Positions 1 to 28,334 of a DNA stretch of 42,067 nucleotides are shown here, one piece after another. Numbering within the stretch: the stretch's first letter is position 1; each line of letters opens with the position of its first letter. The notes beneath the pieces are model-generated. The model was not told where the DNA came from. It did not search any database and worked only from the letters and a program-made list of their open reading frames with translations. This DNA is from a bacterium. GTDB lineage: Bacteria > Latescibacterota > Latescibacteria > Latescibacterales > Latescibacteraceae. A program made the translations under genes and the position numbers. Location: assembly GCA_021372535.1 (NCBI GenBank), contig JAJFUH010000222.1, positions 1-42,067 of the forward strand. Direction: 5' to 3'.

Positions 1-12
1 GTGGAGGTTACA

Positions 13-2319
13 TTGCGGAGATGTATTAAATATTGTATAACGCCTGTGATTGCTGCAGTGATTCTGCTTGTGGCTTTTGCGAGTGTTTCCACCGCAGCGG
101 TGGATGCGGTGGTTGAAAAGTCATGGAATACATGGCCAAGCACCATCTATTATTTAGCTCTTTTACAGGGACCTGACAGTCCCTATGATGATGTTACCGT
201 TTATATTACCGCTGTTGATGAGTACACCCTCTATATCAACGGCAAAGAGATCGGTTCCGACAACGACTGGTCAACAGTCGAATCCTATCAGGTCAATATT
301 TCTGGTCCTAATGTGATTGTCGGTGTGGCGGTCAAGAATAACGGTCTTGGTAACGGTAACGGTCTGCTGGTTGATATCAAAGCCAATTCAGACTGGCTGG
401 GAACAACCACCATGAAACGCCGCAGTCATATTGTAAATGAACAGCGGCTCCTTTATGGTTGTGCATGGTATTATTATGCAGGAGATGTGGTTGCTAAAAT
501 CGGTGATAAATGGTATGATCCCAAAGTCGACTTCTTCCAGGAAATAACCAAGTATGGTTTTAAATATGCGATGCTTGGCACGATGGGGGATCTCAAATAC
601 AATCCCGACAATCACATCGAAATTGTGACGGGCTATCCGCAGAATATCGATATCGGAACAGCGGATAATTTTAAAATAGTTGAAGATGGTGCAGCATCCA
701 TCATCAGCCGTGCTGAAGCAGTTGATCGCGGTATTGCTACCGACGGGCTGACAAAAGTCGGCGGTATCCGGCTCAGACGAGTGGAAGGTGAAAACCTCGC
801 ACTGGGGAAACCTGCCCAGGAAGAGAAACTGTCCGATGGTGATCTGGCGAATGGATACGCTTTCAATCAGGATCCGGTTAATATTACAAAATACGTTGAT
901 CTTGAAGTCATCCGTCGTGTGAATAAAATGGTTTTGTACACCGGTGGAACGAACCCCGATACTTGGAACAGAGATTCGGTTCGCGGATATTCGGTAGAAA
1001 TCTCTCTTGATGAGTTCAGGTACGAAGAAGTCGGTGTTCTTCATGAAATCGGTATCAGTAACGCCGATGAGGGCGGATATGACTGGTATGCGATTAAATT
1101 CCCTGAAGAATGGGCTCGCTACCTGCGCTTCAAGATTACCGAGCCGAGAATTTTCTACCCCAACATCGGTGAAATGATGGTATACGGTGTAGGGTATGTT
1201 TACAGCGGTGTATACGAATCCGATTGGTTTACCTTCGACAATCCCTCGAGCCTGAAGAACTATGATATGATTACATGGTTCGGAAAAACTCCCGAGGGAA
1301 CGAAAATAGTCCTGCAGACCAAGACGAAATTTGAGCTGCCGGACGGTACTCCGGTCGAGAGTGACTGGAGTCCGGAGCATACAACCTCACCATTCAAATT
1401 TGACTCCCCTGAACCGGCCTACGCATTCAAGTATCGTGTATCGCTCTCCACACAGGATATCGATGTTACTCCTGAGTTTCAGGAAATTATGGTAACATAT
1501 TCCGATACAAATCAGCCGGTATCACGGGCACAGGCATATGTACTGCCGAATTCAGTTCCGATGGGTGAGATGACCGATTTTGAATATACCATTCAGTACA
1601 ATCTCAACCCGGGACAGAATATCAAAACGGTTGCGATCTTTGTACCCGGAGAATCGTTTGTTGATTCTGTGTACAGTTCGGATGCAGATGCGCTCGTATC
1701 GATAGATGAAACATTGACCAAATCAACTCCTGATACTCTGTATGTTACCTTTGCGACGCCGGTTACCAATAAAGTAGCCGATGCAGCAGGTACTATGGAT
1801 GAACTGAAGATCTACTTCAAGACCGAACTCCTCACCAACATTCACGAATTCAATTCGTACGTTTTTAACGAATTCAACAATGACGGTGCGGGTGGTGTTA
1901 AGGTATGGCAGCGGGCCGATAAATCGTGGACGGTTTCCACATCCACCATACTCGACAGTGTTTTAGGCAAGGTTGCTGCGGTACCGAAAGTGTTTACTCC
2001 AGATCCTAAAGATAATATCAACGATTTCACCGTCATCGAGTTCGAGCTCGCAAAGGTTGAATCTGATGTTAAAATCAAGATTTTCGATACAAAAGGCAGG
2101 CTCGTAACAACGAAGGATTGTGGAGTTTTAATGGCCAAGAAGTATTATCTTGATGAAAAGCTCAATAATGCTGCACTTGCAGAAAAACTGCCCGGTTACT
2201 GGGATGGCACCGATGATGACGGTGATCTTGTACCTCCCGGCGTTTACCTGTACCAGGTGGTTGTTGATACCGATTCAGGAGAGAAGATCAAGGGCGGTAC
2301 TGTAGTTGTAGCGTATTAA
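13..2319 (+). CDS. Secreted discoidin-like protein with FlgD/T9SS-like C-terminal Ig domain
   Basis: A 768-residue exported protein. The reading frame is open from base 1 (GTG), but GGAGG at 3-7 lies five bases before a TTG at 13, and a good signal peptide (basic start, hydrophobic core, ending near STAAVDA) follows, so I chose TTG 13. An N-terminal beta domain contains YTLYINGKEIG around residues 72-82, resembling carbohydrate-binding modules. A region starting near residue 260 (NLALGKP) looks like an F5/8 type C (discoidin) domain. The last ~110 residues (from PKVFTPDP, about residue 657) carry the WDGTDDDGDLVPPGVYLYQV signature of FlgD-like/T9SS C-terminal Ig domains. Inference: a surface or secreted protein, possibly sorted through the C-terminal domain, with the PorV-like gene directly downstream supporting this. 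There is no catalytic motif I recognise. Confidence 0.75.
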   Translation: MRRCIKYCITPVIAAVILLVAFASVSTAAVDAVVEKSWNTWPSTIYYLALLQGPDSPYDDVTVYITAVDEYTLYINGKEIGSDNDWSTVESYQVNISGPNVIVGVAVKNNGLGNGNGLLVDIKANSDWLGTTTMKRRSHIVNEQRLLYGCAWYYYAGDVVAKIGDKWYDPKVDFFQEITKYGFKYAMLGTMGDLKYNPDNHIEIVTGYPQNIDIGTADNFKIVEDGAASIISRAEAVDRGIATDGLTKVGGIRLRRVEGENLALGKPAQEEKLSDGDLANGYAFNQDPVNITKYVDLEVIRRVNKMVLYTGGTNPDTWNRDSVRGYSVEISLDEFRYEEVGVLHEIGISNADEGGYDWYAIKFPEEWARYLRFKITEPRIFYPNIGEMMVYGVGYVYSGVYESDWFTFDNPSSLKNYDMITWFGKTPEGTKIVLQTKTKFELPDGTPVESDWSPEHTTSPFKFDSPEPAYAFKYRVSLSTQDIDVTPEFQEIMVTYSDTNQPVSRAQAYVLPNSVPMGEMTDFEYTIQYNLNPGQNIKTVAIFVPGESFVDSVYSSDADALVSIDETLTKSTPDTLYVTFATPVTNKVADAAGTMDELKIYFKTELLTNIHEFNSYVFNEFNNDGAGGVKVWQRADKSWTVSTSTILDSVLGKVAAVPKVFTPDPKDNINDFTVIEFELAKVESDVKIKIFDTKGRLVTTKDCGVLMAKKYYLDEKLNNAALAEKLPGYWDGTDDDGDLVPPGVYLYQVVVDTDSGEKIKGGTVVVAY

Positions 2320-2388
2320 TGTGCGTATATTCGTAGGAGTAATGAGTAACACATGATCGCAACTGTACAACGGACGGGTAAATAGGAT

Positions 2389-3339
2389 ATGGCGAGTACA
2401 AACTGGAATGTTGTAAGAAGACGAGGTCTCGGTCGAAAGCTGAAATGCATTTTGGCTGTATGCGCTGTGGGTGTGTTTCTTTCCACCACGCTAGCTTTTG
2501 GAGCATTTTTTGATACAGCCGGCCAGAGTGCGCGACCCATGGGAATGGGAGAAGTATTTTTGGCTTCCACCGGAGACGCGAACAGTTTCTGGTATAATCC
2601 TGCCGGTCTTGCACATAATCCGGGCAGGATGGTTGGTCTATCATATGGGGTTATCAATCCATCGATTGCTTCTGACCTGATGACTTATAATCTTAATGTT
2701 GTGTTTGGCGGCTTTGGGGTCGGAATTTCCGGTCTTGGTGCCGATGGGGCATCGGAAATGGTTATCAATGGTGCCTATGGAAAATCTTTCGGCGAGAAAT
2801 TTGCTCTTGGCGGCAACGTCAGGATGCTGAGATGGGCTGTTGAGGGTCAGGATGATCTGTATCATGGCGGCAAGGATGACGATCTTTCCAAAGTTTCGTT
2901 CTCGCTTGATCTCAATGCGACATATGGCATTGGTGAATTATTCGGTATCGGTCAGTTTTCCACGGGTGTCTATGTGAAAAACGCCATTATGCCGAATATT
3001 TCCGAATCAGGCGATGACGGAGGTAAACTGCCCATAGAAGCCGGGATCGGTCTTATGGTCCAGAAAGATATTTATACTGTTGAAGGTGATGTGGCGGTGT
3101 GTGACGGCAATACGTTTTTCCGGTTGGGAACCGAATCCGGAATTACCGGATCGGATCTGAAACTCAGAGCCGGATTTATTTATGGCAGCGATTTTGAAGA
3201 TGATACCGAGCAGACTGATATTGATCTGGGGCTCGGCTACAATTTCAAATCGGTTATCTTCGATTATGCCTATAATTTGCCGTTGGCGTTCAAGGAAACA
3301 GGAGGCAGGCACTTTATATCTTTCGGAATTTCTTTCTAA
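2389..3339 (+). CDS. PorV/PorQ-like outer-membrane beta-barrel protein
   Basis: 316 residues. A signal peptide (hydrophobic core CILAVCAVGVFLSTTLAFG) is followed at once by the motif region FFDTAGQSARPMGMGE and NSFWYNPAGLAH, which is the hallmark start of PorV/PorQ (UPF0164/FadL-like) proteins: a glycine-rich GMG segment and an NPAGL segment. The rest alternates short beta strands and ends in an aromatic strand (HFISFGISF), as expected for an outer-membrane barrel recognised by the Bam machinery. PorV shuttles type IX secretion substrates in Bacteroidota; PorQ-like paralogs are common across the FCB group without a full T9SS. It lies 69 bp after a gene with a T9SS-like C-terminal domain. The ATG lacks a strong ribosome-binding site. 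The family call is fairly sure; the secretion role is inference. Confidence 0.8.
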   Translation: MASTNWNVVRRRGLGRKLKCILAVCAVGVFLSTTLAFGAFFDTAGQSARPMGMGEVFLASTGDANSFWYNPAGLAHNPGRMVGLSYGVINPSIASDLMTYNLNVVFGGFGVGISGLGADGASEMVINGAYGKSFGEKFALGGNVRMLRWAVEGQDDLYHGGKDDDLSKVSFSLDLNATYGIGELFGIGQFSTGVYVKNAIMPNISESGDDGGKLPIEAGIGLMVQKDIYTVEGDVAVCDGNTFFRLGTESGITGSDLKLRAGFIYGSDFEDDTEQTDIDLGLGYNFKSVIFDYAYNLPLAFKETGGRHFISFGISF

Positions 3340-3368
3340 TAAGGTCATCAATGGGATAGACGGTACCT

Positions 3369-6125
3369 ATGAAAAGACGATACGAAAATAAAAGTAGGGT
3401 AGTCCGCGCTGTCATATTTTCTGTAACGATGATGGCTCTGGCCGTATCATCGTACAGTCAGGATTTCATCTCACGGGAATATAGACCGCGCTGGTACCAA
3501 CCGTATGAAAATTTCGGCCAGTATGATTTGAGGAAATATCCCGACTATTATCAGGAGCCATCGACAGGCAGACAGTACCTGTCGCCTGTTACCTATGATC
3601 AGTTTGGTAATTTCCTCTTGCCTGGTGGCGATATTTACTATATGAAATGGGATCAATCGAGGATTGGAGCCTCTGCAACGACAGATGCAAGTTCTACCCA
3701 GTATTACAACAGTGTTTTCAACAACCTGATGATTGCATCTGATGAGTTCTCCAACTGGCAGACGAAATTCCTGATTGGTTCTACATTACGGGCTTATTTT
3801 ACACCATCAACGATGAAAATAACCCGTTTTAATGGTATTCGTTGGGATGCATCATCACGAAAAAACAATGTAACCCTGGTCGCATCACCGGGAACAAACC
3901 CGATTTACGGTGTTCACTGGCAGAGTATTCTTGGTGATATCCTCAAGATTGGCGGATCATACGTTTCGAAACAACGCGGAACGATTTCTGATTCCCATCA
4001 GGATATCGATACTGCCATCAGAACAGGCCCCCGGTATGTTTATGTGATCGTGAGTGATGATTCTCCCGAGGACGCTGATAACGGTCCACGTGTCTATGGG
4101 ATAAAAGTAAGATCAAACAATGAGGATATCACCAAGAATGTTCCTCAGAGAGCGTTCAGAATCCCCGATCTCCTTAACAGCAAACGTTATTATAACAAGG
4201 ACTTCCAGAAACAGTTCGTTTTTCCGCGGAGTTCGAGTCTTCCGTTTGTTCCTCAGAAAGTTGAGGCTGTGGCATATAATCAGCAATCGTGGGTTCTGGA
4301 TATGCTTAATGATAATACCCTGAATGACATGTTTTCCAAGACAGACGCCATTAACTATTTTGGCTATGTGAATCTTCCTGTTGCCGGTTCTGACGATCCT
4401 CAGAGCAGGCAGTTTGCCGCAGATACATCAAAAGGATTTCTTGAGGCATCGGGAACTGATATTGTTATCTACGAGTTTCTGGTTCCCTACGCGGCTCGAG
4501 ACCTCGAATTCGAGGTTCTTGCTGCAAACGATTACTGCATCGATATTGTTTCAACGATGTACAGGATCACTCAGGAAGGTGAAGCAGACTGGGCAGACAA
4601 GCCTTTCACTCCAGCATGGAACGGAAAATGGAGCATTTATTATGATAAAAAGCACTGTGTGAATGCTCCGGGTAATGTTAAGGATCTTTCCAATATGGAG
4701 TGGGTTTCGGTTCGTTATGACCGTATAACCGGTATGAGTGTCTATGGCCTGAACATGGAGTTGAACTGGCGTGGTTTGTTTGTCCGCGCTGAATTCAATC
4801 AGTATAATGAATACAGGTCGTATCCGCTCCCCGATAAATGGCCGGGAGCTTCCAGTAATGAATTGCATTCACAGGCATGGTTTGTGAATGCTGAAAAGAC
4901 ATTCGGAAAATGGAGTCTGGGTGGTGAAGTATTCAACTACCCCCGTCAATACATGCAATACAGCTCATGGTCGACGGTTGATGATAACGATGACGATGAT
5001 CAGTATGTCGGCGGTTCTGAGTATCCGGGTCTCGATGTGGATTTTGACAGGACTGTCGATACAACATGGCGCGGAGAACCGTACATTCTCTATTATTTTG
5101 ATTCCATTTCTTTCGGTGATGATTTCAATCATAACGGCATCATCGATGAGCGTGAGAATGACGACCAGGACGACCTTCCCTATGAACGTGATTCCAGGGG
5201 TCAGCATTATTTCGTTAAAATATCACCCCGTGAATTGACCAAAATATCTCTGGGTCATTACGATATCAAACAGGAATACTTCAAGGGACGTAATTTGACT
5301 GATTATGTAAAATTAGAGCATATTCAGTCGTTGAGTTCGATCGGTGAGTTCGGTGTATTCCACCGTATGGAACGTGTCCAGGATGATTACAAGTCGAATC
5401 AGTATTATACACAATATACCTATGATAACAGGGGCGCTTCGGGCTACTTTAACAACCTGGCGTTTAAAAATGCATGGTACAATTCATCCATGTTGCATAC
5501 ACGCCTGACATTTATACCCAGCTTCAATATTATCAATGATGCAAAGTATGATGTAATCAATCGTGTCGATACCGATTTTTACGGTACTGTGGACCAGCAG
5601 CGCAGAAGGGCTCCTCAGGATATCATCGATGCATCATTTATTCATAAGGCTGATTATACATTACGTATTGCCGATGCCCGTATTCTGCCCGAAATGTACT
5701 GGCGCGGTTTCCGTCTTATGAAAGAAAGAAGAATTAAAGAATTTAAATTACAGCCAATGATTAAATTTGTTCATTCTTATTTTACGAAAGATCTGCAATA
5801 TAATTATTATGGTGGCCGCAGCTGGACAGTATATCCAATTCTGAGATTTGATTACCAGGTTGCTCCTAATACCTTGTTGCGTTGCGGATTCCAGGGATTT
5901 CCTGGTTTTCCTGAAATGAGAAGAAATACTGGTGATAGACTTCATGATTCCAACAGCAGAAGGATGATAATCGCTTTTGAAAACAGAAGCCTTTATCAGG
6001 GATTTAATCTGTTGGTTATGCTCGGTGTTCGGAGAGAAAAAGAAGAATGGGTTGAAAGTTTTGGACGAAAACAACCCGGTACAACAGAGTATTTCATCTC
6101 CATCAGGTCTGAGGCTTCAAGATAA
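3369..6125 (+). CDS. Large outer-membrane-like protein with Ca-binding-type loop, tandem paralog A
   Basis: 918 residues with a signal peptide (AVIFSVTMMALAVSSYSQ). No family is recognised. It is rich in Tyr, Asp, Asn and Arg and in alternating beta strands, and its last third looks like a barrel, with a conserved GFQGFPGFPEM near residues 839-849. Around residues 538-605 sit acidic loops (DDNDDDDQ and DDFNHNGIIDERENDDQDD), the second resembling a DxNxDG/dockerin-type calcium site. It aligns along its length with the next gene: YDQFGNFLLPGGDIYYMKW against YDNFGNYIMDGVRIFEW, and FNGIRWD against LNGVRWD. The stop codon overlaps the next frame as TAATG. Inference: an outer-membrane or cell-surface component of the envelope cluster; the molecular function is unknown. 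Confidence 0.7.
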   Translation: MKRRYENKSRVVRAVIFSVTMMALAVSSYSQDFISREYRPRWYQPYENFGQYDLRKYPDYYQEPSTGRQYLSPVTYDQFGNFLLPGGDIYYMKWDQSRIGASATTDASSTQYYNSVFNNLMIASDEFSNWQTKFLIGSTLRAYFTPSTMKITRFNGIRWDASSRKNNVTLVASPGTNPIYGVHWQSILGDILKIGGSYVSKQRGTISDSHQDIDTAIRTGPRYVYVIVSDDSPEDADNGPRVYGIKVRSNNEDITKNVPQRAFRIPDLLNSKRYYNKDFQKQFVFPRSSSLPFVPQKVEAVAYNQQSWVLDMLNDNTLNDMFSKTDAINYFGYVNLPVAGSDDPQSRQFAADTSKGFLEASGTDIVIYEFLVPYAARDLEFEVLAANDYCIDIVSTMYRITQEGEADWADKPFTPAWNGKWSIYYDKKHCVNAPGNVKDLSNMEWVSVRYDRITGMSVYGLNMELNWRGLFVRAEFNQYNEYRSYPLPDKWPGASSNELHSQAWFVNAEKTFGKWSLGGEVFNYPRQYMQYSSWSTVDDNDDDDQYVGGSEYPGLDVDFDRTVDTTWRGEPYILYYFDSISFGDDFNHNGIIDERENDDQDDLPYERDSRGQHYFVKISPRELTKISLGHYDIKQEYFKGRNLTDYVKLEHIQSLSSIGEFGVFHRMERVQDDYKSNQYYTQYTYDNRGASGYFNNLAFKNAWYNSSMLHTRLTFIPSFNIINDAKYDVINRVDTDFYGTVDQQRRRAPQDIIDASFIHKADYTLRIADARILPEMYWRGFRLMKERRIKEFKLQPMIKFVHSYFTKDLQYNYYGGRSWTVYPILRFDYQVAPNTLLRCGFQGFPGFPEMRRNTGDRLHDSNSRRMIIAFENRSLYQGFNLLVMLGVRREKEEWVESFGRKQPGTTEYFISIRSEASR

Positions 6126-6151
6126 TGTTTACTCTTAATCAGGAAAAGAGA

Positions 6152-9100: not shown

Positions 9101-9151
9101 CCAAGCGAGATAAACCACTTCAAATTTTGTTCGAAAGGTTGTGATGAGGTA

Positions 9152-12100
9152 ATGAATATTGGTTATGCGTTTTTAGTGGTAATGGTAGGTATGGCATATT
9201 TTGTCTCCGGTGTTCCGACACCGGATGAAATGATAGCTGATTTTGATGCCGCTCAGAAGTTTTATACATCAGGCGCATATGATCAGGCTATCGAAAAGTA
9301 TGGCCAGATTAACGAAGTTGAAAGTCGCTTTCTTGATGAAGATAAGGTAATCGTCGAGTATGGCACGATGAGAATACCTATCAAAGATGCTACCCTGTAT
9401 CAATCGGGAAATTCGTATTATAAAATGATTGAGCAGGAAAATCAGAAAGCCCGTGAAACAAAGGATGATGCTGAGAAAGAAAAAGCGAAGAAACTGTCTC
9501 TCGAATATGCGGTGAGTGCAACCGATTTTTTTGATAAAACTCAGGACCGCACGAAAAATATTGAGTTACAGTCTCTTGCGCAGAACCGTATCATTTCGAC
9601 CTGGTATCTTATTCCTGATTATGACCGTGTTATTGAAGAAGGGAAAACTCTCATAGAAAGGTATCCTAAAAGTCCTGATGTACTGGATGCAATGTATAAC
9701 ATCGGATGGGCTTATTATGATAAAAAGCAGTATATGGAGAGTATTCAGACGTTTGAGGAGCTTATAGCTCAGTTCCCGACCGGTCCGAAATCTGACAGGG
9801 CAATGTATCAGATCGGTGAATCATTCTTTGATCAATCGAAATTTTCAGAGGCTATTCCGTTTTATCAGCGTCTTGTCGAGAAACAGCGTATTAATGAATT
9901 GACTGAACAGGAAATCCAGAAAATTCAGCGTGAAAAGCTCGCAGGCCTGACTGATGAAACGGCGCTTGACCTTGCGGCGAAAGCTCAGCTCAAGGTAGGC
10001 GCGTGTTTTGCGAATATCGGTGATTACGACGGTGCAGCTACGGCGTATAAACGTGTTGCCGTGTTGTTCCGGTTTGACCAGAACCTTATTTCTGAAGCAT
10101 ACAAGCGTCTTGCCGATATGTATATGGAAAAAGGTGATTTTGAAGCCTCGATTCAAGCATACCGTGACGCAATAGATGAGGTTCCGAACAAGATATTTTC
10201 AGCGAAAATGCAGGTTCTTATTTGTCAGAGATATTTCGAACACAATCATTTTGCTGAAGCTGTCAGAGAGTATAACAATTACATAAGCGCATACAGCGAT
10301 GTTGCTTTTCGTGCAGGCTTCGATCTTGATGAGGCTTTCTATAATCTGGCACGTTCATATTATGAGCTTGGTAATGAAATGTTGAAAGCTAATGAACAGC
10401 AGGCCGGCCTCGACAATATCGAGCAGGCTATTACAACTCATGAGCGTGTTCTGAAAGAGTTTCCTGATACTACATTGAAGATGAGAGTATATTTCCATCT
10501 GGCCTTGGCGTATCAGCGGAATGGAAGCCAGGAATATCTCCCGAAGGCAATCGATAATTACAAGAAACTTCTTACCGAATTTCCGGATTCTCCATACAAG
10601 ATTGCCTGTTATTTTCAGACAGCACGGGCGTATCAGGGTCTGAAGAAATACGATGAGGCGATTGCACAGTATCAGCAGATTATTAATGAATTCCCGGATG
10701 ATCCCCAGGTTGAAAATTCCTGGTTTGAAATGGCTCTCGCTTTCAGGAGTCAGGGGAAGGATGTTGATGCTGTTCAACCTCTGCTTAAGGTCACCCGTAA
10801 TAACAAGAGTCTCTTTACGAGTGCCCGTCTTCTGGTTGCTCAGACCTTGAGCAAGGAAAGCAAATGGCAGGAAGTGGTTGATATTGTGACATATGCAGTC
10901 GAAGATACGAGTATGATTGAAAGTACGTATCGTTTGTCACAGTTATATATCATGCGCGGGACTGCCAATAAATCTCTCGGTAATTTTGATCAGTCAATTG
11001 AAGATTATACAAAGGCATATGATCTTAATCAGCCGGAGACTCAGGAGATGGCGTCGGTGTATCGCGCCGGTGTATATATCGAACAGAATCAGTTTGCCAG
11101 GGCAGAGAAAGATCTGAAAGAACTGATGAACAGCTCGAATGAGCAGATCAGGCGTGATGCTCAGATTCGTCTTGCTATCATCAGTGTGCGTCAGAACAAG
11201 AGTGCACAGGCAATTGAAACGTATCTGGGTCTATATAATTCAACAACCGATCCCATTGAAAAACTCGGTTTTTTAAGAAACCTCGTTCAGTTGAGTGCGC
11301 AAGCCGAGGATTGGAATGGTATTGAAAAATATGCCCACATGATGCTTGATTCTGATATCGCTGAAGGGAAAAAACCGGAGAATGCGGATTTCTTCTATAA
11401 GGAAGAGGCTTATTATTTCCTTGCGACCACCGCTGAAACCCGAGAAGATTACCATAAGGCAATCGATTATCTTTTAACGGGTTATCAGAAATTCCCGAGT
11501 TCATATTTTTCAAGCGATATGCTTTTAAAAATCGGTGTTATATATCTTACAAAGCTGAATACAGAACCTGATGCGCTTGATCTGGCAGGTGAGTATTTTG
11601 AAAAGTATATAAAGGCGTTCCCCAATACGACGAATACCGAGATGGCACATTATTATCTCGGATTCTGTTATTATAACGGACGGCGATTTGATATGGCATA
11701 TTCTACATTCAAATCGTTTACGCAGAAATATCCGAACTCAGAGTTTACACCTGAAGCATACTACTACTATTCGGACAGCAGTTACAATCTGGGTAATCTG
11801 GAAGATTGTATTCAGGGCTTCGATATGGTAATCAACAGGTATCCAAATCATCCTCGTTCTGTTGAAGCACTGTATACAAAAGCCTGGGCTTTGCTGGACC
11901 TCGGGAGGGAAGAAGAGGCCATGAAGTCATTACGGCTGCTTATCGATAAATATCCCGAAAGCCAGTATGCCCCGAGTTCTTTGTTCAGTATTGCTGACTT
12001 CTATTATAATCAGCAAAATTATCCGGAAGCACTGAGTACATATCAGCAGGTTTTGGATAAATATCCAAACAGCGAGGTTGCGGTAAAGGTTCCAGAAACA

Positions 12101-12430
12101 ATTAAGGATTTAAAGGAAACAATCGCATATATCGAGTATGAGAAAGGATGGAACCTGTTTACGCAAGCTCGAGAACTCAATGATATGAATCTCTATCGTC
12201 AGGCAGCAGAAATATTCAACAATGTTGTGACTCAATATCCGTATACTGAAAGTGAAATCGGCGCCTATTCAAACATGGGTATTTGTTACGAAGCCATCGG
12301 CGAATGGCAGAAGGCGGCTGATGCATATGATCAGGTTATGAAAAGATATGAAGAAGGTGCGGCGGTAGGTCAGGAAGCATACACTTTTGCAAGAATGCAT
12401 AAAGATTATATCGTTGCAAACAGATTTTAA
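9152..12430 (+). CDS. Giant periplasmic TPR-repeat protein (YbgF/BamD-like repeats)
   Basis: 1092 residues: a short signal sequence (AFLVVMVGMAYFVSGVP) followed by tetratricopeptide-type repeats over most of the length. The repeats show the usual pattern of Gly/Ala at position 8, Tyr at 11, Ala at 20 and Pro at the end, for example YNIGWAYYDKKQYMESIQ, AYQGLKKYDEAIAQYQQII and FSIADFYYNQQNYPEALST, usually followed by FP or YP-type ends as in YbgF/CpoB and BamD. TPR arrays of this kind scaffold envelope complexes. No lipobox is visible, so a periplasmic or membrane-tethered location is likely. It sits between the barrel-like genes and the ExbB/ExbD motor genes, consistent with a periplasmic bridge. 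It is far longer than CpoB (about 260 residues); TPR proteins of this size occur in gliding and secretion machines. Confidence 0.85.
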   Translation: MNIGYAFLVVMVGMAYFVSGVPTPDEMIADFDAAQKFYTSGAYDQAIEKYGQINEVESRFLDEDKVIVEYGTMRIPIKDATLYQSGNSYYKMIEQENQKARETKDDAEKEKAKKLSLEYAVSATDFFDKTQDRTKNIELQSLAQNRIISTWYLIPDYDRVIEEGKTLIERYPKSPDVLDAMYNIGWAYYDKKQYMESIQTFEELIAQFPTGPKSDRAMYQIGESFFDQSKFSEAIPFYQRLVEKQRINELTEQEIQKIQREKLAGLTDETALDLAAKAQLKVGACFANIGDYDGAATAYKRVAVLFRFDQNLISEAYKRLADMYMEKGDFEASIQAYRDAIDEVPNKIFSAKMQVLICQRYFEHNHFAEAVREYNNYISAYSDVAFRAGFDLDEAFYNLARSYYELGNEMLKANEQQAGLDNIEQAITTHERVLKEFPDTTLKMRVYFHLALAYQRNGSQEYLPKAIDNYKKLLTEFPDSPYKIACYFQTARAYQGLKKYDEAIAQYQQIINEFPDDPQVENSWFEMALAFRSQGKDVDAVQPLLKVTRNNKSLFTSARLLVAQTLSKESKWQEVVDIVTYAVEDTSMIESTYRLSQLYIMRGTANKSLGNFDQSIEDYTKAYDLNQPETQEMASVYRAGVYIEQNQFARAEKDLKELMNSSNEQIRRDAQIRLAIISVRQNKSAQAIETYLGLYNSTTDPIEKLGFLRNLVQLSAQAEDWNGIEKYAHMMLDSDIAEGKKPENADFFYKEEAYYFLATTAETREDYHKAIDYLLTGYQKFPSSYFSSDMLLKIGVIYLTKLNTEPDALDLAGEYFEKYIKAFPNTTNTEMAHYYLGFCYYNGRRFDMAYSTFKSFTQKYPNSEFTPEAYYYYSDSSYNLGNLEDCIQGFDMVINRYPNHPRSVEALYTKAWALLDLGREEEAMKSLRLLIDKYPESQYAPSSLFSIADFYYNQQNYPEALSTYQQVLDKYPNSEVAVKVPETIKDLKETIAYIEYEKGWNLFTQARELNDMNLYRQAAEIFNNVVTQYPYTESEIGAYSNMGICYEAIGEWQKAADAYDQVMKRYEEGAAVGQEAYTFARMHKDYIVANRF

Positions 12431-12449
12431 CATAATCAAGAGGGAGGCA

Positions 12450-13028
12450 ATGTTGAATATGGGGAAGGCTGTCTTAATAGCAGGGCTCTCTTTTCTTATT
12501 GTTTTCAGTTCTGTAGGATTAACATTCGCGCAGGATGAAGAGAGCTTTGTACGAGTGTCAGTGATTTCAAAACGGGATGCCATTGTGCTTTCGGCGCTGT
12601 TTCCCGGGTTGGGACAAATGACCACAGGGCAAAAGGTTAAGGGTGTTTCATTTTTCCTTGCCGAAGCTGCTTCGCTTGTATTGTTTGTTAATGCTCATGA
12701 AAATTACAGTACAAAAAAAACCACTTATGATAAAGACCTTAAAGACTTCGAGGCGATTGCGACTGTCGGAAGAGGCAGTTATATGACAGCGGAAAAGCAG
12801 TTTAAAGATTTAAAGGATCAGAGCAAAGACCTCGATGATCTCCATTCAATCAGAAATACCGCAATAATCGTTGCGGCGGGAGTTTATGCATATAATCTTG
12901 TTGATGCGATATTTTTTGCCCCTTCATCAAGTGAAAGCCGTAAGGCCGAGGGTACAAAAAACAGGATTGAAGTTACTTCGTCCATGGTTGACAGGACACC
13001 TGGTATAATGCTGACAAAAAGATTTTAG
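12450..13028 (+). CDS. DUF5683-type membrane protein
   Basis: 192 residues from ATG 12450, chosen because AGGGAGG sits immediately upstream and a signal peptide (VLIAGLSFLIVFSSVGLTFAQ) begins there; an earlier in-frame ATG at 12387 lies inside the TPR gene. The segment AIVLSALFPGLGQMTTGQ matches the start of DUF5683 proteins, in which a PGLGQ motif precedes short membrane helices. Further hydrophobic segments follow at FFLAEAASLVLFVNA and TAIIVAAGVYAYNLVDAIFF, separated by a charged, helix-forming stretch. The biochemical role of this family is unknown; in FCB genomes it often sits near cell-envelope genes. The gene follows the TPR stop by 19 bp, so it is probably co-transcribed. Confidence 0.7.
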   Translation: MLNMGKAVLIAGLSFLIVFSSVGLTFAQDEESFVRVSVISKRDAIVLSALFPGLGQMTTGQKVKGVSFFLAEAASLVLFVNAHENYSTKKTTYDKDLKDFEAIATVGRGSYMTAEKQFKDLKDQSKDLDDLHSIRNTAIIVAAGVYAYNLVDAIFFAPSSSESRKAEGTKNRIEVTSSMVDRTPGIMLTKRF

Positions 13029-13046
13029 TGGAAGGAGAATATTCCT

Positions 13047-13508
13047 GTGAAAAAGATATTCATCTTCATGGCTCCAGTTTTATTACTGGCAATCATGTAT
13101 GGATGTAGTAAAGATCATTCATCGCCGACGTTCAGCTTATATGATAGTACATCTTCACCTGTCAATGTTTTAGCAACTTATGATAAGGGAGGTGACCTTA
13201 TAAAAGTAAGTTGGTCAATGGAGAACACTGAAGATGTGGCAAATTATCTCGTAGCCTGGTCGGATTCCAATGTTTTTGATTATGGTAAAACGTACGACCA
13301 GTTCGTAAAATTGCCTGAAGATGTTAGTTTAAAGACAGAGATCAGCCTGGACACGAACGATGTGTTGAAAAAGATGGAATATTATAAAGCGGCTGATATT
13401 GATTCGTTTATTGTCTATTTTACCGTTTCCGCAGTATATAACAACAAAGATTTTAATTATTTTATTGGTCCAAGAGCTGAAGTCGACAGTGTTCTTATTT
13501 TGCGGTAA
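13047..13508 (+). CDS. Small lipoprotein with Fn3-like fold
   Basis: 153 residues from a GTG at 13047 with GAAGGAG upstream. The N-terminus is a lipoprotein signal: two lysines, a hydrophobic core and a Cys at residue 20 in AIMYGCSKD. The mature part reads like a single fibronectin type III or related beta-sandwich domain (SPVNVLATYDKGGDLIKVSW, then YLVAWSDSN and FIVYFTVSAVYN). Function unknown. It lies 18 bp after the DUF5683 gene and 59 bp before exbB, so it is placed to be a lipid-anchored accessory of the motor cluster. Confidence 0.7.
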   Translation: MKKIFIFMAPVLLLAIMYGCSKDHSSPTFSLYDSTSSPVNVLATYDKGGDLIKVSWSMENTEDVANYLVAWSDSNVFDYGKTYDQFVKLPEDVSLKTEISLDTNDVLKKMEYYKAADIDSFIVYFTVSAVYNNKDFNYFIGPRAEVDSVLILR

Positions 13509-13567
13509 TGTAAAGAGTAAATAATAGAAGAATAACAAAAAAAGTTGCTGAAAGGAGAAGGTACGAG

Positions 13568-14290
13568 ATGGTAGAGATGTTTAAAGCCGGTGGGCCAATG
13601 ATGTATCCCTTATTGCTCTCGGCACTAATCGGTGTAGCTGTTATTTTTGAAAGATTCGTGGTTCTGCATCGTATGCCATCCGCTAAAGCGGCAGAAAAAC
13701 AGCTGACAGATGTTGAGCAGGCAATTAATGAAAGCGGTCTTGAAGGTGCTGCAAAAAAGATATCAAAGGGTAAAGGGGTTCTCAATTACATTTTCGCCCG
13801 TTTACTCAAACGTTATGATACCCTGGTGATGGAAAAGAAAGAGTTGGCACTCCGTAGAAAAGAAGTTGGCGGTGGAGCCGAAGCGACTGATGGTGTTACT
13901 AAGTTTCTCGTGGCTCAATCAGAGCTTACCGAATTCAGGGATGAGTTACTTCTGACGATTGATGATGCGTCGAGAAGTTATGTGACACGGTTTCTGGCGG
14001 TGCTCAATACCGTAAGTAATATTTCACCTCTCCTTGGACTTCTCGGAACGATTACCGGTATGATCAAGGCTTTCGAATCGATTGCAGCTTCAGGAACAGG
14101 CGATCCGAAAGTCGTTGCTGCTGGTATTTCTGAAGCGCTCCTTACCACTGCTGCAGGTCTGTTTATCGCAATTCCGGCGGTTGTTTTTTACCGTTATCTT
14201 GGAGCTAAGGCAGATGCTTCGCGTAACAGCGTTGAAGTATATGCAATGTCGTTTTCAAATACATTGCTTGCATTACTGGAGCGCCAGTAA
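13568..14290 (+). CDS. ExbB/TolQ/MotA-family proton channel subunit
   Basis: 240 residues; ATG preceded by AAAGGAGAAGG. Three membrane helices are visible: residues about 11-30 (MYPLLLSALIGVAVIFERFV), a second around 137-158 with NTVSNISPLLGLLGTITGMI, and a third around 185-205 with EALLTTAAGLFIAIPAVV. The second and third match the conserved ExbB/TolQ/MotA core, including the LLGLLGT and EAL-TTAAGL segments. With ExbD this family forms an inner-membrane channel that turns proton motive force into mechanical work on periplasmic partners. A cytoplasmic insertion of about 80 charged residues lies between helices one and two. Two exbD genes follow at once. Known for the family: energising TonB, Tol-Pal or gliding motors; which one applies here is not shown by this gene. 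Confidence 0.93.
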   Translation: MVEMFKAGGPMMYPLLLSALIGVAVIFERFVVLHRMPSAKAAEKQLTDVEQAINESGLEGAAKKISKGKGVLNYIFARLLKRYDTLVMEKKELALRRKEVGGGAEATDGVTKFLVAQSELTEFRDELLLTIDDASRSYVTRFLAVLNTVSNISPLLGLLGTITGMIKAFESIAASGTGDPKVVAAGISEALLTTAAGLFIAIPAVVFYRYLGAKADASRNSVEVYAMSFSNTLLALLERQ

Positions 14291-14315
14291 TTTACCGAGT
14301 GGAGTGTGATAATCT

Positions 14316-14741
14316 ATGAAAAAGAAGAGAGAACGGACTGGTCTGATCGGTGAGGGAGAAATAGATTTAACACCGCTCATTGACTGTGTATTCCTTCTGC
14401 TGATATTTTTTATGCTCACCACTGTGTTCATTCAGGTGAAGGGTCTTGCCGTTGATTTACCTGGCGCGGCTGATCAACAGGAAGAGCAGCAACAGAAAAA
14501 GGATGTAAACATCCATGTTTCTGCGGCAGGAGAATTTACCGTTAGCGGAGAAAAAGTCCCTGCATCAGGTTTGGCCAGTGCTATTAAAGGAGCAATGGAT
14601 ATAAACAATAACAGAAATGTTATAATCCAGGGCGATCCTGAATCAAAGCACAAAGATATCGTGTATGTTATGGACATGGCATACAGTGTCGGCGCTGAGG
14701 GTATGGCATTTGCAATCGAACAGGATTCTGGCCAACAATAA
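14316..14741 (+). CDS. ExbD/TolR-family protein (first copy)
   Basis: 141 residues. A short basic cytoplasmic N-terminus leads into the hallmark helix IDLTPLIDCVFLLLIFFML with the proton-pathway Asp at residue 23. A periplasmic domain follows (VNIHVSAAGEFTVSGEKV, then VIIQGDPESKHKDIVYVMD) of the ExbD/TolR fold. A Gln/Glu-rich linker (QQEEQQQKK) separates helix and domain. It pairs with the ExbB-like protein 25 bp upstream and with a second, diverged ExbD 32 bp downstream. Confidence 0.93.
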   Translation: MKKKRERTGLIGEGEIDLTPLIDCVFLLLIFFMLTTVFIQVKGLAVDLPGAADQQEEQQQKKDVNIHVSAAGEFTVSGEKVPASGLASAIKGAMDINNNRNVIIQGDPESKHKDIVYVMDMAYSVGAEGMAFAIEQDSGQQ

Positions 14742-14773
14742 CAACGCTCCGAAAAGAAAAGGGTGAGGTTTAA

Positions 14774-15205
14774 ATGTCAGTCATACGAAAAAGAGGGTCA
14801 GTTCTTGAATCCGATGCAATCAATTTAACACCCTTGATTGATGCGGTTTTTCTTTTGCTGATTTTCTTTATGGTTACAACGGTATTCAAGAACCCTGCTC
14901 AGTTAAAACTCACACTGCCAGATGCATCATATCCGTCAAAACTCGATAAAAAACAGCTTGTTGCCGAAATGGATTCCGAAGGCAATATCGCTATCAATGG
15001 TGTTAATGTCACTTTTGATTCTTTTGAAGCGTATTTAGCTCAGGAAAAACATAAGTCAGGTAATAACACCTTATTGATCCGCGCTGATATCAACACGCGG
15101 CACGGTGATGTTCTGAAACTTATGAAAATGGCGCGAGCTCAGCAGATTGAAACAATTGCTATGGCAGTTAATGATTTAAATGATCAGGAAGAAACGAAGA
15201 AGTAA
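14774..15205 (+). CDS. ExbD/TolR-family protein (second copy)
   Basis: 143 residues, preceded by GGGTGAGG. The helix INLTPLIDAVFLLLIFFMV keeps the essential Asp at residue 23, and a periplasmic domain follows (AEMDSEGNIAINGVNV, then LLIRADINTRHGDVLKLMK). It is similar in layout to the preceding ExbD but clearly diverged outside the helix, so the channel may be a heteromer. One ExbB with two ExbD subunits is also seen in the AglR-AglQ-AglS gliding motor and in several FCB TonB-like systems. Its 3' end overlaps an upstream extension of the next frame, but not the start chosen there. Confidence 0.93.
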   Translation: MSVIRKRGSVLESDAINLTPLIDAVFLLLIFFMVTTVFKNPAQLKLTLPDASYPSKLDKKQLVAEMDSEGNIAINGVNVTFDSFEAYLAQEKHKSGNNTLLIRADINTRHGDVLKLMKMARAQQIETIAMAVNDLNDQEETKK

Positions 15206-15248
15206 ATATTTAAATTTTTTTGCAATTGATAAGTTTAGGAGATCATTC

Positions 15249-16499
15249 ATGGCGGAAAAGTATCAATCATCAAGATTTAAAGGTCCGTCAGATGCTATCG
15301 ATCTGGAAAGACTGGAGAAAGAAACTCAGAAGCTTTTTTTTCTTGGCCTTCTTGTTGCAATCTCTCTCCATGCTGCTGTCGGTTCATACTTCATGTTTAA
15401 AAAGACTGAAGTGAAGGTTGTCAGACCTGCGACAATGGAACTAGTGATCAGACGTCCGAGGATGACGAAAGCATTTGAGTTCAAGAAAAAAAGAGTTAAA
15501 ACTCGAACCATGGAACGCAAAAAAGTTGTTGAGAGGAAACCGACCGCTGATATTCAGACAAAATCGATATCAACCGTCGATCTCATGGGTAATGTAGCGT
15601 CGTTTGAATATTCTAACGAGATGAAGACTGACTTGGATTCCGAGGTTTTCATTCCTGAAGGTATCGATATTGAAATGACATCGACCCGTGAACCGGAAAA
15701 ACAGATATCGATGAAAGAAGAAATGATCTCCCTCGAGGACCTGGATACTGGCCAGTATAAGGCTATGGTTATTCAGGATCCCAACAACAAACAGAGCATC
15801 AAAGGTTTCGTGTATATTTCCACCGCATGGGGTGCACAATTAAAACCGCCTGACAAGTTGAAACGAGCGGTTATCAATCTTGTTGAAGCAGTGAACCGCT
15901 ATACGAACATCAATGCGAAGGTTGATAGTCATTTATATCTCGATTCACGTAAGATTTTCGACACCCCGTTTGTTTACGTCGTTTCAGACAAAGCTTATGA
16001 ATTAACTGAAATCGAACGTAAAAATTTTGGTAGTTATTTACGGAAAGGTGGATTTGCAGTCGTTGATAACGGGACTCCGGAATACGAGTTCGGGCAGGCG
16101 GAAGCTTCACTTCGGCAGATGATGAAAGATTCGTTGGGCGCCGATGCACAGTTTCTCCCGATTCCGAATGAACATCCGCTGTATCATTGTTTCTTTGATT
16201 TTAATGACGGCCCTCCACAGGGATCAGAGATAGAGATGGTGCAGACTACTACAACCGGGGCACAAGGTGAAACAGCCCGAAATTCATCGATGGCGAAAGC
16301 GGTTCACTATCTTGAGGGAATATGGCTTGATGAACGGCTTGTGGCAATTTATTCTGACAAGGGATATGCAAAGAAATGGAAAGAATTGTCAAATAATGAA
16401 CCACAGCTCAAGATAGGTGTGAATTTTGTGGTATTCGCTTTAACACAGGCTGGTGGAATAGCACAGCAGAAAATGGATTTCTTCTCCGCTGTTCAATAG
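15249..16499 (+). CDS. TonB-like N-terminus fused to DUF4159 domain
   Basis: 416 residues from ATG 15249, chosen because AGGAG at 15237-15241 precedes it; an in-frame ATG at 15180 would overlap exbD. A cytoplasmic start is followed by one membrane helix (about residues 29-50) containing LHAAVG, where the His resembles the conserved TonB/TolA helix His. A basic linker (RTMERKKVVERKP) then resembles TonB linkers. The remaining half (about residues 175-410) matches DUF4159, with FVYVVSDKAYELTEIE, LRKGGFAVVDNG and LEGIWLDERLVAIYS. DUF4159 is usually a stand-alone exported domain, related to class I glutamine amidotransferase-like folds but without clear catalysis. A TonB-type transducer whose periplasmic end is DUF4159 rather than a TonB domain would be unusual. 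It sits directly after exbB-exbD-exbD. Confidence 0.75.
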   Translation: MAEKYQSSRFKGPSDAIDLERLEKETQKLFFLGLLVAISLHAAVGSYFMFKKTEVKVVRPATMELVIRRPRMTKAFEFKKKRVKTRTMERKKVVERKPTADIQTKSISTVDLMGNVASFEYSNEMKTDLDSEVFIPEGIDIEMTSTREPEKQISMKEEMISLEDLDTGQYKAMVIQDPNNKQSIKGFVYISTAWGAQLKPPDKLKRAVINLVEAVNRYTNINAKVDSHLYLDSRKIFDTPFVYVVSDKAYELTEIERKNFGSYLRKGGFAVVDNGTPEYEFGQAEASLRQMMKDSLGADAQFLPIPNEHPLYHCFFDFNDGPPQGSEIEMVQTTTTGAQGETARNSSMAKAVHYLEGIWLDERLVAIYSDKGYAKKWKELSNNEPQLKIGVNFVVFALTQAGGIAQQKMDFFSAVQ

Positions 16500-16532
16500 A
16501 ATTGTAAACTGTTAATGTGAGGTGGAAAGAAA

Positions 16533-17729
16533 ATGACAATAGCCGTAAAACGAAAAATTATTGTATCGTTGATACTGGCGTTGCCGTTTCTTCTGGCAGT
16601 GAGTTGTTTTTTATACCCTCCAGAAATACGCTACAGCTCGTATCTTGTACCCAATATGGAAAGCAATGATCCGGCGTACTCCATTGAAAAGGATACAGGT
16701 GGTGTTGTTTATGACCTCGGCGGTTCCAGTATTGTCGTTAAGTATATGACGGATGCGGAACTGAATGAGTTGTTCCCCGAAGAATCAGCTCATGGTTTAT
16801 ATTCCACAAATCCGTATTCGTATGGAAACTGGATCGATCCGGATCTCGGGTATACTCCGAACCGTTTCACGGTATTCGGCGTTACCATTGTTAACAGAAC
16901 GTTTGCAAAAATGAGACTCGATCCTGTTGAAGCCGTTCTTATTACCGATTTGGGTGAAACGTTCCATTCCTATACGGTAAGTATTGCTGCCGCCCGGTAT
17001 GGAAATAGTTTCGAGAACTATTTTAAGTCGATTCTCGGACAGTCGGGAAATGAGTTCTACCGTTATGAGATGCGCCTCGGTATGGTTCGCGGTAAAAATT
17101 ATGGTTTGGACGAAATCATATTCCGTGGAGACAGCTATACCGGACTCATCGCATTTGATCCGTTACGTCCCGAAGTTAAAAAATGCAGACTTGATCTCCA
17201 TGATGTCGTCTACCGTTTCGACGCGTTTAACAGGCCTGCCGATGTTGTCGATGTTTCGTTCAACCTTGACAGGAAAGTTGACAAAGTCGTTGTAACACGT
17301 GAAATGAAGCAGAAAGAGCTTGAGCGTGAAAAAGTACGTATCAGAATGACAGGTCCTCAGCAGCTCGTCGGGAACCGTGTCAATGACAGTTCCAGGAACG
17401 CTCGAGCAATTGATAAAGCCCTTGAGGATAACGTCTCTCCGATGGAAACCTGTTTTCTTACACGGTACAGACGAGGTGAAGTCAATCCTGGTCAGATGAT
17501 GTTATCGTTCACTATAGACCCAAGCGGCAGGGTAACATCGCAGAATGTTCTTGAAGTAACGGGTATCAACAGTGAGAATTTCATGAATTGTATTCTCGAT
17601 GTTATTAAAACATTGAAATTTGATACGATTCAGGATATGCCGAATGAGGGTACTAACATTGTAAAGGGACCTGCCAAACCAGTCAATGTAACTTACCCGC
17701 TTACATTCTCGGTGTATGTTGAAGAATAA
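16533..17729 (+). CDS. Lipoprotein with AgmX/PglI-type TonB-like C-terminal domain
   Basis: 398 residues. The N-terminus has a lipoprotein signal (LILALPFLLAVSC, Cys near residue 25). A central beta-rich region of unknown family (residues about 60-260) follows, then a charged helix (REMKQKELEREKVRIR). The last ~100 residues match the AgmX/PglI C-terminal domain: an N-terminal Cys (METCFLTRYRRGE), the core LSFTIDPSGRVTSQNVLE, a second Cys (FMNCILDVIKTLKF) and a terminal strand. That domain is related to TonB C-termini and occurs in gliding and gene-cluster transducers. Being on a lipoprotein rather than on a helix-anchored protein, it may be the outer-membrane partner of the preceding TonB-like/DUF4159 protein. 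It is the last gene before the terminator at 17770. Confidence 0.72.
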   Translation: MTIAVKRKIIVSLILALPFLLAVSCFLYPPEIRYSSYLVPNMESNDPAYSIEKDTGGVVYDLGGSSIVVKYMTDAELNELFPEESAHGLYSTNPYSYGNWIDPDLGYTPNRFTVFGVTIVNRTFAKMRLDPVEAVLITDLGETFHSYTVSIAAARYGNSFENYFKSILGQSGNEFYRYEMRLGMVRGKNYGLDEIIFRGDSYTGLIAFDPLRPEVKKCRLDLHDVVYRFDAFNRPADVVDVSFNLDRKVDKVVVTREMKQKELEREKVRIRMTGPQQLVGNRVNDSSRNARAIDKALEDNVSPMETCFLTRYRRGEVNPGQMMLSFTIDPSGRVTSQNVLEVTGINSENFMNCILDVIKTLKFDTIQDMPNEGTNIVKGPAKPVNVTYPLTFSVYVEE

Positions 17730-17763
17730 ATAGTCCGTATACATCGAAAAACAACGTCTGTTG

Positions 17764-17797
17764 AAAAAAGAGGGCATTTCCATATGCCCTCTTTTTT
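17764..17797 (+). terminator. Rho-independent terminator of the envelope cluster
   Basis: GAGGGCAT (17770-17777), a six-base loop, ATGCCCTC (17784-17791), then six T. The A-run on the left mirrors the T-run, so it could act in both directions. It closes the 1-17.7 kb plus-strand cluster. Confidence 0.9.
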
Positions 17798-17862
17798 ATC
17801 GGGCGGAAGATAATGACTTCGATAAAAATCGATGTGAAAATCAGATTTGGTCTAAAATATTA

Positions 17863-21615: not shown

Positions 21616-22986
21616 ATGGCAGGGACATTCAAGGGTGGAGTTCATCCCGATGACTCCAAATCACTCAGCAGTTCGTGCTCTATAAAAACAGCGCCTGTAC
21701 CCCCGACAGTTGTTCTGCCGGTGCGACAGCACCTCGGTGCTCCGGCGAAAGTGATCGTGGAAAAAGGTCAGGCTGTAAAAAAAGGCCAGATCGTTGCTGA
21801 AGCGGGCGGATTTGTGTCGGCTCCCGTTCATGCCAGTATTTCCGGAACGATAGCAGCAATTGAACCGCGGCTTTCCCCGGCGGGTTCAAAAATAATGAGC
21901 GTGGTCATCGAAGGTGATGGCAGCGATGAGTGGGCCGATGGTCTCGATACAAACCGTGATGTCTCTTCCATGTCGCCGGATGAAATGCGCAGTGCTATCC
22001 GTTCCGCCGGTATAGTCGGACTCGGGGGCGCCGCATTCCCTACGCACGTCAAATTATCCCCGCCAAAAGAAAAACCTGTCGATACGCTCATTCTCAACGG
22101 TGTCGAATGTGAGCCTTATGCCACATGTGACCACCGGCTCATGATCGAGAATCCTGCTGATATTGTCGGGGGTCTTAAAATCCTCATGGCTGTGCTTGGC
22201 TGTTCGGGAGCGTATATCGGAATCGAGCAGAATAAACCGGATGCCATCAGGATAATGCGTGATGCGGTAAAAGACCTCAAGGGAGTCAAGGTTATAGGGC
22301 TCAGGGTAAAATATCCGCAGGGGGGCGAAAAGCAGCTAATTAACGCTGTAACAGGTCGCAAGGTTCCTGCAGGAGGTCTGCCGATGGATGTGGGGTGCGT
22401 CGTACAGAATGTTGGAACAGCAGTTGCGGTATATGAAGCGGTTGCATGTGGACGGCCGCTCATACAGCGGGTAGTGACCGTAACAGGGCGCGGGGTCATA
22501 GAGCCGGTGAATGTCCTTGCAAGGCTGGGAGACACATTCGCCCGCCTGATAGAGCAGGCCGGTGGATATACCGAAAAAGCCGCTAAACTCATCATGGGTG
22601 GACCGATGATGGGGATTGCCCAGTATACCGACGATGTACCTGTTGTCAAGGGTACTTCCTGTATTCTGGTTATGGAAGACTCCGAAGCGGACTTGGGAGA
22701 AGAAAAACCGTGTATTTCGTGCGGTATGTGCGTCGATGTGTGCCCCATGAAGCTTGTTCCAACGGCGCTCGCCACATTTGTTGAGTTCGAGCAGTGGGAA
22801 AATGTCAGAGCGTATCACGCGCTTGATTGTATTGAATGCGGCTGCTGTACATATATATGCCCGACTAAACGGCGTCTCGTTGAGAATATAAAATTCGGCA
22901 AAGCTAAGCTTACTGAAATCCGGGCAAAAGAACAGGCGGAACAGAAAGCCCGTGAACAACAGAACGCAGCGGTGAAATCTTCATGA
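21616..22986 (+). CDS. rnfC: Rnf complex subunit RnfC
   Basis: 456 residues. RnfC is the peripheral NADH:FMN-binding subunit of the Rnf ferredoxin:NAD+ oxidoreductase. The opening FKGGVHP, the biotinyl-like barrel (VIVEKGQAVKKGQIVAEAGG), the NADH/FMN-binding domain (GIVGLGGAAFPTHVKL and LILNGVECEPY) and the SLBB region are standard. Two [4Fe-4S] motifs follow near the C-terminus: CISCGMCVDVCP and CIECGCCTYICP. A C-terminal Glu/Ala/Gln-rich tail ends the protein. First gene of rnfCDGEAB, the order found in Acetobacterium and other anaerobes; a promoter-like sequence precedes it. Confidence 0.98.
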   Translation: MAGTFKGGVHPDDSKSLSSSCSIKTAPVPPTVVLPVRQHLGAPAKVIVEKGQAVKKGQIVAEAGGFVSAPVHASISGTIAAIEPRLSPAGSKIMSVVIEGDGSDEWADGLDTNRDVSSMSPDEMRSAIRSAGIVGLGGAAFPTHVKLSPPKEKPVDTLILNGVECEPYATCDHRLMIENPADIVGGLKILMAVLGCSGAYIGIEQNKPDAIRIMRDAVKDLKGVKVIGLRVKYPQGGEKQLINAVTGRKVPAGGLPMDVGCVVQNVGTAVAVYEAVACGRPLIQRVVTVTGRGVIEPVNVLARLGDTFARLIEQAGGYTEKAAKLIMGGPMMGIAQYTDDVPVVKGTSCILVMEDSEADLGEEKPCISCGMCVDVCPMKLVPTALATFVEFEQWENVRAYHALDCIECGCCTYICPTKRRLVENIKFGKAKLTEIRAKEQAEQKAREQQNAAVKSS

Positions 22987-23017
22987 GTATTTTTTTCCCC
23001 GTGGGAGTACTGAATAG

Positions 23018-24055: not shown

Positions 24056-24623
24056 TCTCATGAAATTCGGTATAATCCTCATGGTTTATTCTCTCGTGGC
24101 CGGTGGCGCACTGGCGTATGTCAGTATCAAGACAGCCCCGCTCATCACCGAAAACAGGCTTGCCGAAGAACGGAATGCTCTGGCGGAAGTACTGCCCGAT
24201 ATGGCGGGAGGATACGAGGAAAAGAACAAGGACGGTGATTTTCCGTACTGGGTCGCTTACCGTGATGCGGGGAAACAGGAAATTGGCGGATATATTTTCA
24301 AAGCTCAGGGAACGGGATATTCATCGGTCATATCATCTATGGTCGGCGTCGACACGAACGGAAAAATTGTGGGTGTAAAAGTACTGTCTCAGCAGGAAAC
24401 ACCCGGTCTCGGCGCTAAGGTGATTGAAATCAGGCACGGCGATTCCGATCCATGGTTTCCCCGTCAGTTCAAGGGTAAAACCGTTCAGGATGATCTCAAG
24501 GTTGTTAAGGACGGCGGTACGATCGATGCCATCACCGGCGCGACCATTTCTTCACGTACAGTGACAAATTCCATTAATGCCGGATTAAAAAAACTCATGG
24601 GACTCGTCGGAGGCGCATCATGA
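24048..24623 (+). CDS. rnfG: Rnf complex subunit RnfG
   Basis: 191 residues from GTG 24048. One N-terminal helix (GIILMVYSLVAGGALAYV) anchors a periplasmic FMN-binding domain with the flavinylation motif DAITGATISS, acceptor Thr at residue 166. The segment GVKVLSQQETPGLGAKV is typical of RnfG/NqrC. The 3' end overlaps rnfE as ATGA. RnfG takes electrons from RnfD on the outer face of the membrane. Confidence 0.97.
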   Translation: MRDLMKFGIILMVYSLVAGGALAYVSIKTAPLITENRLAEERNALAEVLPDMAGGYEEKNKDGDFPYWVAYRDAGKQEIGGYIFKAQGTGYSSVISSMVGVDTNGKIVGVKVLSQQETPGLGAKVIEIRHGDSDPWFPRQFKGKTVQDDLKVVKDGGTIDAITGATISSRTVTNSINAGLKKLMGLVGGAS

Positions 24624-25219: not shown

Positions 25220-25228
25220 GAGTTTGAG

Positions 25229-25837: not shown

Positions 25838-25854
25838 GAGTTGTCTGAGACGCT

Positions 25855-28315: not shown

Positions 28316-28334
28316 AACGCCTGTAAGGACAGGA

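Follow-up and report, generated by a model that had tools for sequence, protein, structure and literature searches.

A twelve-gene Latescibacterota cluster joining an ExbBD-type motor to giant outer-membrane barrels: a candidate machine driven by proton-motive force

To our knowledge, only a few outer-membrane machines driven by the proton-motive force (PMF) have been recognized, namely Ton, Tol, Agl-Glt and the type IX secretion system with its gliding machinery (T9SS/Gld). SusCD systems join an outer-membrane barrel to a surface binding partner and occur as many paralogous pairs with few motors. More recently, clusters for vWA force transducers were proposed that encode a TPR protein, a tolQ-like and two tolR-like products and a transducer with TonB topology and a non-TonB head (Williams-Jones et al. 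2025, PMC12204202). Type-B substrates of the T9SS often have a PorP/SprF carrier of their own, encoded alongside, by which they are anchored (PMC9143113, PMC12618676). Here, we analyze a cluster of twelve genes (labelled A to L) in a genome of the family Latescibacteraceae (GenBank assembly GCA_021372535.1; G000 below; 5.35 Mb, 95.9% complete) whose products resemble parts of several of these systems. The window, meaning the whole stretch of 42,067 nucleotides that was analyzed, is contig C222 of this genome (JAJFUH010000222.1). We consider it probable, at roughly 80%, that the twelve genes encode a single PMF-driven machine acting on the outer membrane.

Results

The cluster consists of 12 open reading frames (ORFs) spanning positions 1–17729, all on the plus strand, as a first-pass annotation of the same DNA had stated. 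Families were assigned by profile searches of all twelve proteins against Pfam and NCBIfam, which confirmed the list of surface, periplasmic and inner-membrane parts in that annotation, with C and D matching no family, and bore out its statement that TolB, Pal and a TonB-dependent receptor (TBDR) are missing from the cluster. It had also asked whether the twelve genes stay together in other genomes. Surface and motor halves are linked in Latescibacterota families f1, f3 and f10, which share the same general A–L order, and in KSB1, Kryptonia and three other genomes of the Kryptonia phylum, where the order is somewhat rearranged; because this order recurs so widely, we take the two halves to belong together. 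Conservation of the 1–9 kb and 9–17.7 kb portions only as separate blocks was not seen, though numerous further barrel–A pairs occur by themselves, unaccompanied by motor genes.

One related genome (G008) carries the run A-B-D-E-F-G-H-I-J-K-L with C alone missing. In family f10, most loci lack B and include a third barrel, and K can come before H-I-J. A contig scan also detected the barrel in KSB1 and Kryptonia, where its neighbours are A, B, D, E, motor genes, K and L. A search of 296 Kryptonia-phylum genomes yielded three more with the barrel, one holding a near-complete cluster; in the others A, B, D, E and L are present but reordered. The distribution is patchy, since the barrel was found in 1 of 82 genomes of the phylum to which the KSB1 genome belongs.

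The motor half begins with H (13568–14290), an ExbB/TolQ-type proton channel subunit (PF01618, MotA_ExbB, 9e-29), followed by two ExbD/TolR-type subunits, I (14316–14741; PF02472, 1e-26) and J (14774–15205; PF02472, 7e-28). Alignments show that the proton-path threonines of H are conserved and that the proton-site Asp of the TPLID motif is invariant in both ExbDs; compared with structures in the PDB, H is equally close to TolQ and ExbB. The next product, K (15249–16499, a corrected start common to relatives), is predicted to be a force transducer of TonB topology, with a histidine-containing transmembrane helix, a charged linker and a DUF4159 head (PF13709, 9e-26) that has a solved relative (PDB 4i66, 3e-17). 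The helix histidine is present in the window copy, and the full S-x3-H motif in five relatives (KSB1 and some Latescibacterota). Our literature search found no publication on DUF4159. There are 16 matches to K in this genome, and at another locus (G000:C76:3-6561, L158) four tandem DUF4159 genes, 50–91% identical to K, have a glycosyltransferase and a PIG-L deacetylase as neighbours.

The giant barrels are encoded by C (3369–6125, 918 aa) and its paralog D (6125–9100, 991 aa), D being the best-conserved barrel of the locus. AlphaFold2 predicts D to be a single large beta-barrel (pLDDT 76, pTM 0.78), and the best Foldseek matches of this model were MtrB (3e-10) and the barrel of Deinococcus SlpA (8e-10). 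As the TM-scores were low (TMq ≤0.24), these were not accepted as a fold assignment, and the modelled similarity is read as common barrel character. A region of D with DxDxDG and NxNxxPD motifs (residues ~596–690) is conserved in the alignment and looks calcium-binding from its motifs. Identification of C or D as TBDRs was considered and rejected, since neither a plug nor a convincing match in fold was found; plug domains are present elsewhere in this genome. On sequence criteria, the giant barrels make up an unnamed plugless family, which has 14 matches here, as many as 40 in related genomes and none in any of 24 genomes of Latescibacterota families f6–f9.

Barrels of this family are accompanied by surface proteins. 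In relatives C is preceded by A or by A-B, and among barrel genes with enough upstream sequence, whether single or in a run, 121 of 134 follow an A- or B-type gene. The commonest neighbours of the extra barrel–A pairs are parvulin isomerases: parvulin-type peptidyl-prolyl isomerases (Rotamase) adjoin such pairs at L128:15485-17179, L141:13455-15113, L151:5119-6747 and L146:15383-17089. These recurring enzymes are possibly dedicated chaperones of the giant barrels.

Gene A (1–2319) encodes a secreted surface protein of 772 aa with a signal peptide, a CBM32/F5-8C-like domain (residues 274–381; PF00754 at 7.4e-6, just under its cutoff) and a C-terminal sorting domain of the CHU_C/FlgD T9SS type (PF13585 at 1.2e-7 and PF13860, both above cutoff). 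Its AlphaFold2 model (pLDDT 84) matched CBM32 structures in Foldseek (TMt ~0.7 across ~135 columns), and the fold search returned multidomain beta-sandwich and CBM32 matches and nothing else. The adjoining B (2389–3339, 316 aa) is a PorV/PorP-like outer-membrane barrel (NF033709, PorV_fam, 1e-17, under its cutoff) and a candidate carrier or anchor of A; its KSB1 counterpart matches PF11751 (PorP_SprF) at 8e-9, above cutoff. With a CHU_C-type C-terminal domain on A and a PorV/PorP-like barrel next to it, the two resemble a type-B cargo of the T9SS and the carrier that goes with it. This pair points to the T9SS, which the first-pass annotation did not name.

The translocon component SprA_N was detected in 60 of 64 Latescibacterota genomes, including this one (above cutoff at G000:C18:5097-6509), as compared with none of the 64 above cutoff for the GldL/PorL motor; GldM, GldK and GldN were not searched for. 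Six genomes outside the phylum that bear the cluster or the barrel gave the same pattern, with SprA matches in all six (five above cutoff and the sixth weak) and no match to GldL. As a positive control, the GldL model matched three other Bacteroidota genomes. Latescibacterota would have either a T9SS that lacks the known motor or one whose motor has diverged.

The remaining products are periplasmic proteins and lipoproteins. E (9152–12430) is a periplasmic TPR protein of 1092 aa (TPR_6, 9e-68) whose gene also adjoins D in KSB1, Kryptonia and the three other genomes; F (corrected start ~12450; 12450–13028) is a DUF5683 protein (PF18935, 7e-10, above cutoff); and G (13047–13508) is a small lipoprotein of 153 aa with a lipobox-like signal end (Cys20) and no family match. 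The last gene, L (16533–17729), encodes a lipoprotein (lipobox-like Cys25) with a conserved N-terminal domain and a TonB/AgmX-like C-terminal domain (NF033768, AgmX/PglI, 2e-11, above cutoff). In the alignment the N-terminal domain is conserved and the C-terminal domain optional, the latter being absent in KSB1 and replaced by DUF4159 in Kryptonia, where the L-type lipoprotein domain is fused to a DUF4159 domain (L124:19429-20931). This swap suggests that the DUF4159 and TonB/AgmX-like ends may do similar work.

Copy numbers set the barrels and transducers apart from the motor. Among the Latescibacterota genomes, 26 of the 39 with barrels have an H-type ExbB, as against none of the 25 without (Fisher P = 2.6e-8, shared ancestry being ignored); there is one copy in this genome, one per f1 genome and one to four in those f10 genomes that have any. 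Match counts for the barrel and K, taken as groups of high-scoring segment pairs, correlate across the 64 genomes (rho 0.86) and within f10 (rho 0.51). There are many barrels and transducers per motor, much as in Ton systems.

At its 3′ end, the cluster is closed by an intrinsic terminator (17763–17800, plus strand), which the first-pass annotation had called strong. Folding of 17725–17830 gave −30.9 kcal/mol (z −5.06), and 0 of 200 shuffles were as stable as the native fold, in agreement with that description; the hairpin was not listed by a simple consensus scan. Beyond it lie ffh (17944) and unrelated housekeeping genes (21616–35616: RnfC, an Fe-S protein, TatC, polyprenyl synthetase, PdxJ and SecDF). 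At the other end, A opens at contig base 1 and its true start could be slightly upstream; in a related genome (G007:C209) A also starts at base 1, which suggests an assembly-breaking repeat just upstream of A.

Elsewhere in the genome, a separate operon encodes TolQ, TolR, a TolA/TonB-like protein, TolB, Pal and CpoB (G000:C149). The possibility that the motor genes are a standard Tol-Pal operon was not borne out, with TolB and Pal sitting in this operon of their own, and we rejected Tol-Pal as the identity of the cluster. At another locus (G000:C49, L166), MotB and FliL of the flagellar stator type adjoin a MotA/ExbB-family match, and the species is probably flagellated. Gliding is mentioned in parts of the Latescibacterota literature.

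Discussion

Under the arrangement we infer for the contacts between parts, the point and direction of force and the substrate, H, I and J would form a TolQ/ExbB-type proton motor, on which K would dock through its TonB-like helix and transmit force across the periplasm, its DUF4159 head replacing that of TonB. E may then serve as a periplasmic adaptor and lipoprotein L as the outer-membrane receiver, with force applied to the giant plugless barrels C and D. On the surface, each barrel would have an A-type partner of sugar-binding-like character, which would leave the cell through the type IX translocon and be retained by the PorV/PorP-like B; this would amount to SusCD/Ton-like logic assembled from unrelated parts. 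The role we favour is the energized movement of large substrates through the barrels, with A capturing them, and we give it somewhat less than an even chance; having many barrel and transducer paralogs for each motor is more in keeping with transport of numerous substrates than with one engine for motility.

Several observations weigh against this reading. Neither a plug domain (PF07715) nor any Pfam domain was found in C or D, and Pfam and Foldseek revealed no real similarity of the giant barrels to TBDRs. CBM32 domains are found in adhesins too, and a scan of 85 ORFs neighbouring the extra barrel–A pairs gave no clear excess of carbohydrate enzymes, no background set being compared. Pairwise co-evolution of A and D is strong overall and inconsistent inside single genomes (distance correlation 0.69 against 0.24, 0.44 and −0.13). 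Given these results on neighbours and co-evolution, gliding and secretion linked to the T9SS still deserve serious consideration. Several K proteins of f10 lack the helix histidine and some the whole S-x3-H motif, and the copy-number pattern is drawn from segment-pair groups, not curated genes.

The same parts could propel the cell, with A an adhesin held by B as SprB is by SprF, and the H–K motor dragging A and the barrels through E and L in the manner of Agl-Glt or Gld. The likeness of A and B to type-B cargo and PorP/SprF carriers (PMC9143113, PMC12618676) would fit, as would one ExbB, two ExbDs and an AgmX/PglI-type domain, which recall aglRQS and gltG/gltJ (PMC3169522). We nevertheless regard gliding as unlikely, given that 14–40 barrel matches with a parallel expansion of K would be unexpected for a motility engine, that profile searches of K and L detected no FHA domain, and that this genome has MotB and FliL of the flagellar stator type. 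It also seems rather unlikely that the motor stands in for PorL/PorM where GldL is lacking, driving the export of A-type proteins or their assembly on the surface. A-type genes do adjoin barrels, and SprA without GldL above cutoff is the rule in Latescibacterota and in the six genomes outside it; however, all 24 genomes of families f6–f9 have SprA without barrels or H-type ExbB, so SprA does not depend on this motor in those families, and the general idea of a T9SS energizer is weakened.

A role in envelope tethering or stability like that of Tol-Pal, with the outer membrane kept in position by force on the giant barrels and lipoproteins, would suit the TPR protein and lipoproteins and the equal closeness of H to TolQ and ExbB. 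It is improbable in a genome that already holds a complete Tol-Pal operon, the more so as profile searches found no peptidoglycan-binding OmpA domain in the cluster and many Latescibacterota do without the cluster. Least of all do we expect the cluster to be two unrelated operons that happen to adjoin, a surface-protein/barrel locus and a motor locus; barrel–A pairs do stand alone at many sites, but both halves share one locus in several distant lineages.

If the cluster does build a single machine, the list of PMF-driven systems would gain one that joins T9SS-type surface proteins and giant barrels of an unnamed family to an ExbBD motor with a new transducer head. It would point to a function for at least one type of orphan motor cluster and explain much of the outer membrane of Latescibacterota, a phylum studied mainly through metagenomes. 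A further question is how the T9SS works in genomes with SprA and without detectable GldL.

The first-pass annotation had held that no known system combines these parts. The combination is undescribed in the literature we searched, an incomplete search, and that part of the claim stands; as far as we found, only the combination is new, the motor half resembling an arrangement already proposed (PMC12204202). Like the vWA force-transducer clusters, the locus encodes a TPR protein, one TolQ-like and two TolR-like proteins and a transducer of TonB topology; here the head is DUF4159 by Pfam, with no vWA match, and giant barrels, T9SS-type cargo and a PorV/PorP-like protein do not appear in the description of those clusters (PMC12204202). 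It shares with Agl-Glt one ExbB with two ExbDs (aglRQS), TPR proteins, outer-membrane barrels and an AgmX/PglI-type domain, but the FHA-TonB protein GltG was not found among the twelve proteins, the transducer being of DUF4159 type, and its barrels have 918–991 aa compared with 209–275 aa for GltA, GltB and GltH (PMC3169522). A TolQ/TolR-type motor, a TPR protein and a lipoprotein recall Tol-Pal, whose TolB and Pal lie outside the cluster, elsewhere in the genome. As in pairs of T9SS type-B cargo and PorP/SprF carrier, a protein with a CHU_C-type C-terminal domain is encoded beside a PorP/PorV-like barrel, although here giant barrels and an ExbBD/TonB-like motor share the cluster and GldL was not detected. 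In contrast to SusCD and TonB-dependent transport, there is no plug and no match to the TBDR family, a T9SS-type partner stands in place of the SusD lipoprotein and the head is DUF4159; in common are a barrel with a surface-exposed binding partner, many paralogous pairs and few motors. We tentatively propose, as a possibility short of likely, that the cluster represents an unrecognized class of energized outer-membrane transport in the FCB group, in which a TonB-like DUF4159 transducer, acting through a relay of TPR protein and lipoprotein, would gate or pump plugless giant barrels, each with a T9SS-exported binding protein of its own; such pairs would have expanded to dozens in Latescibacterota, as SusCD has in Bacteroides.

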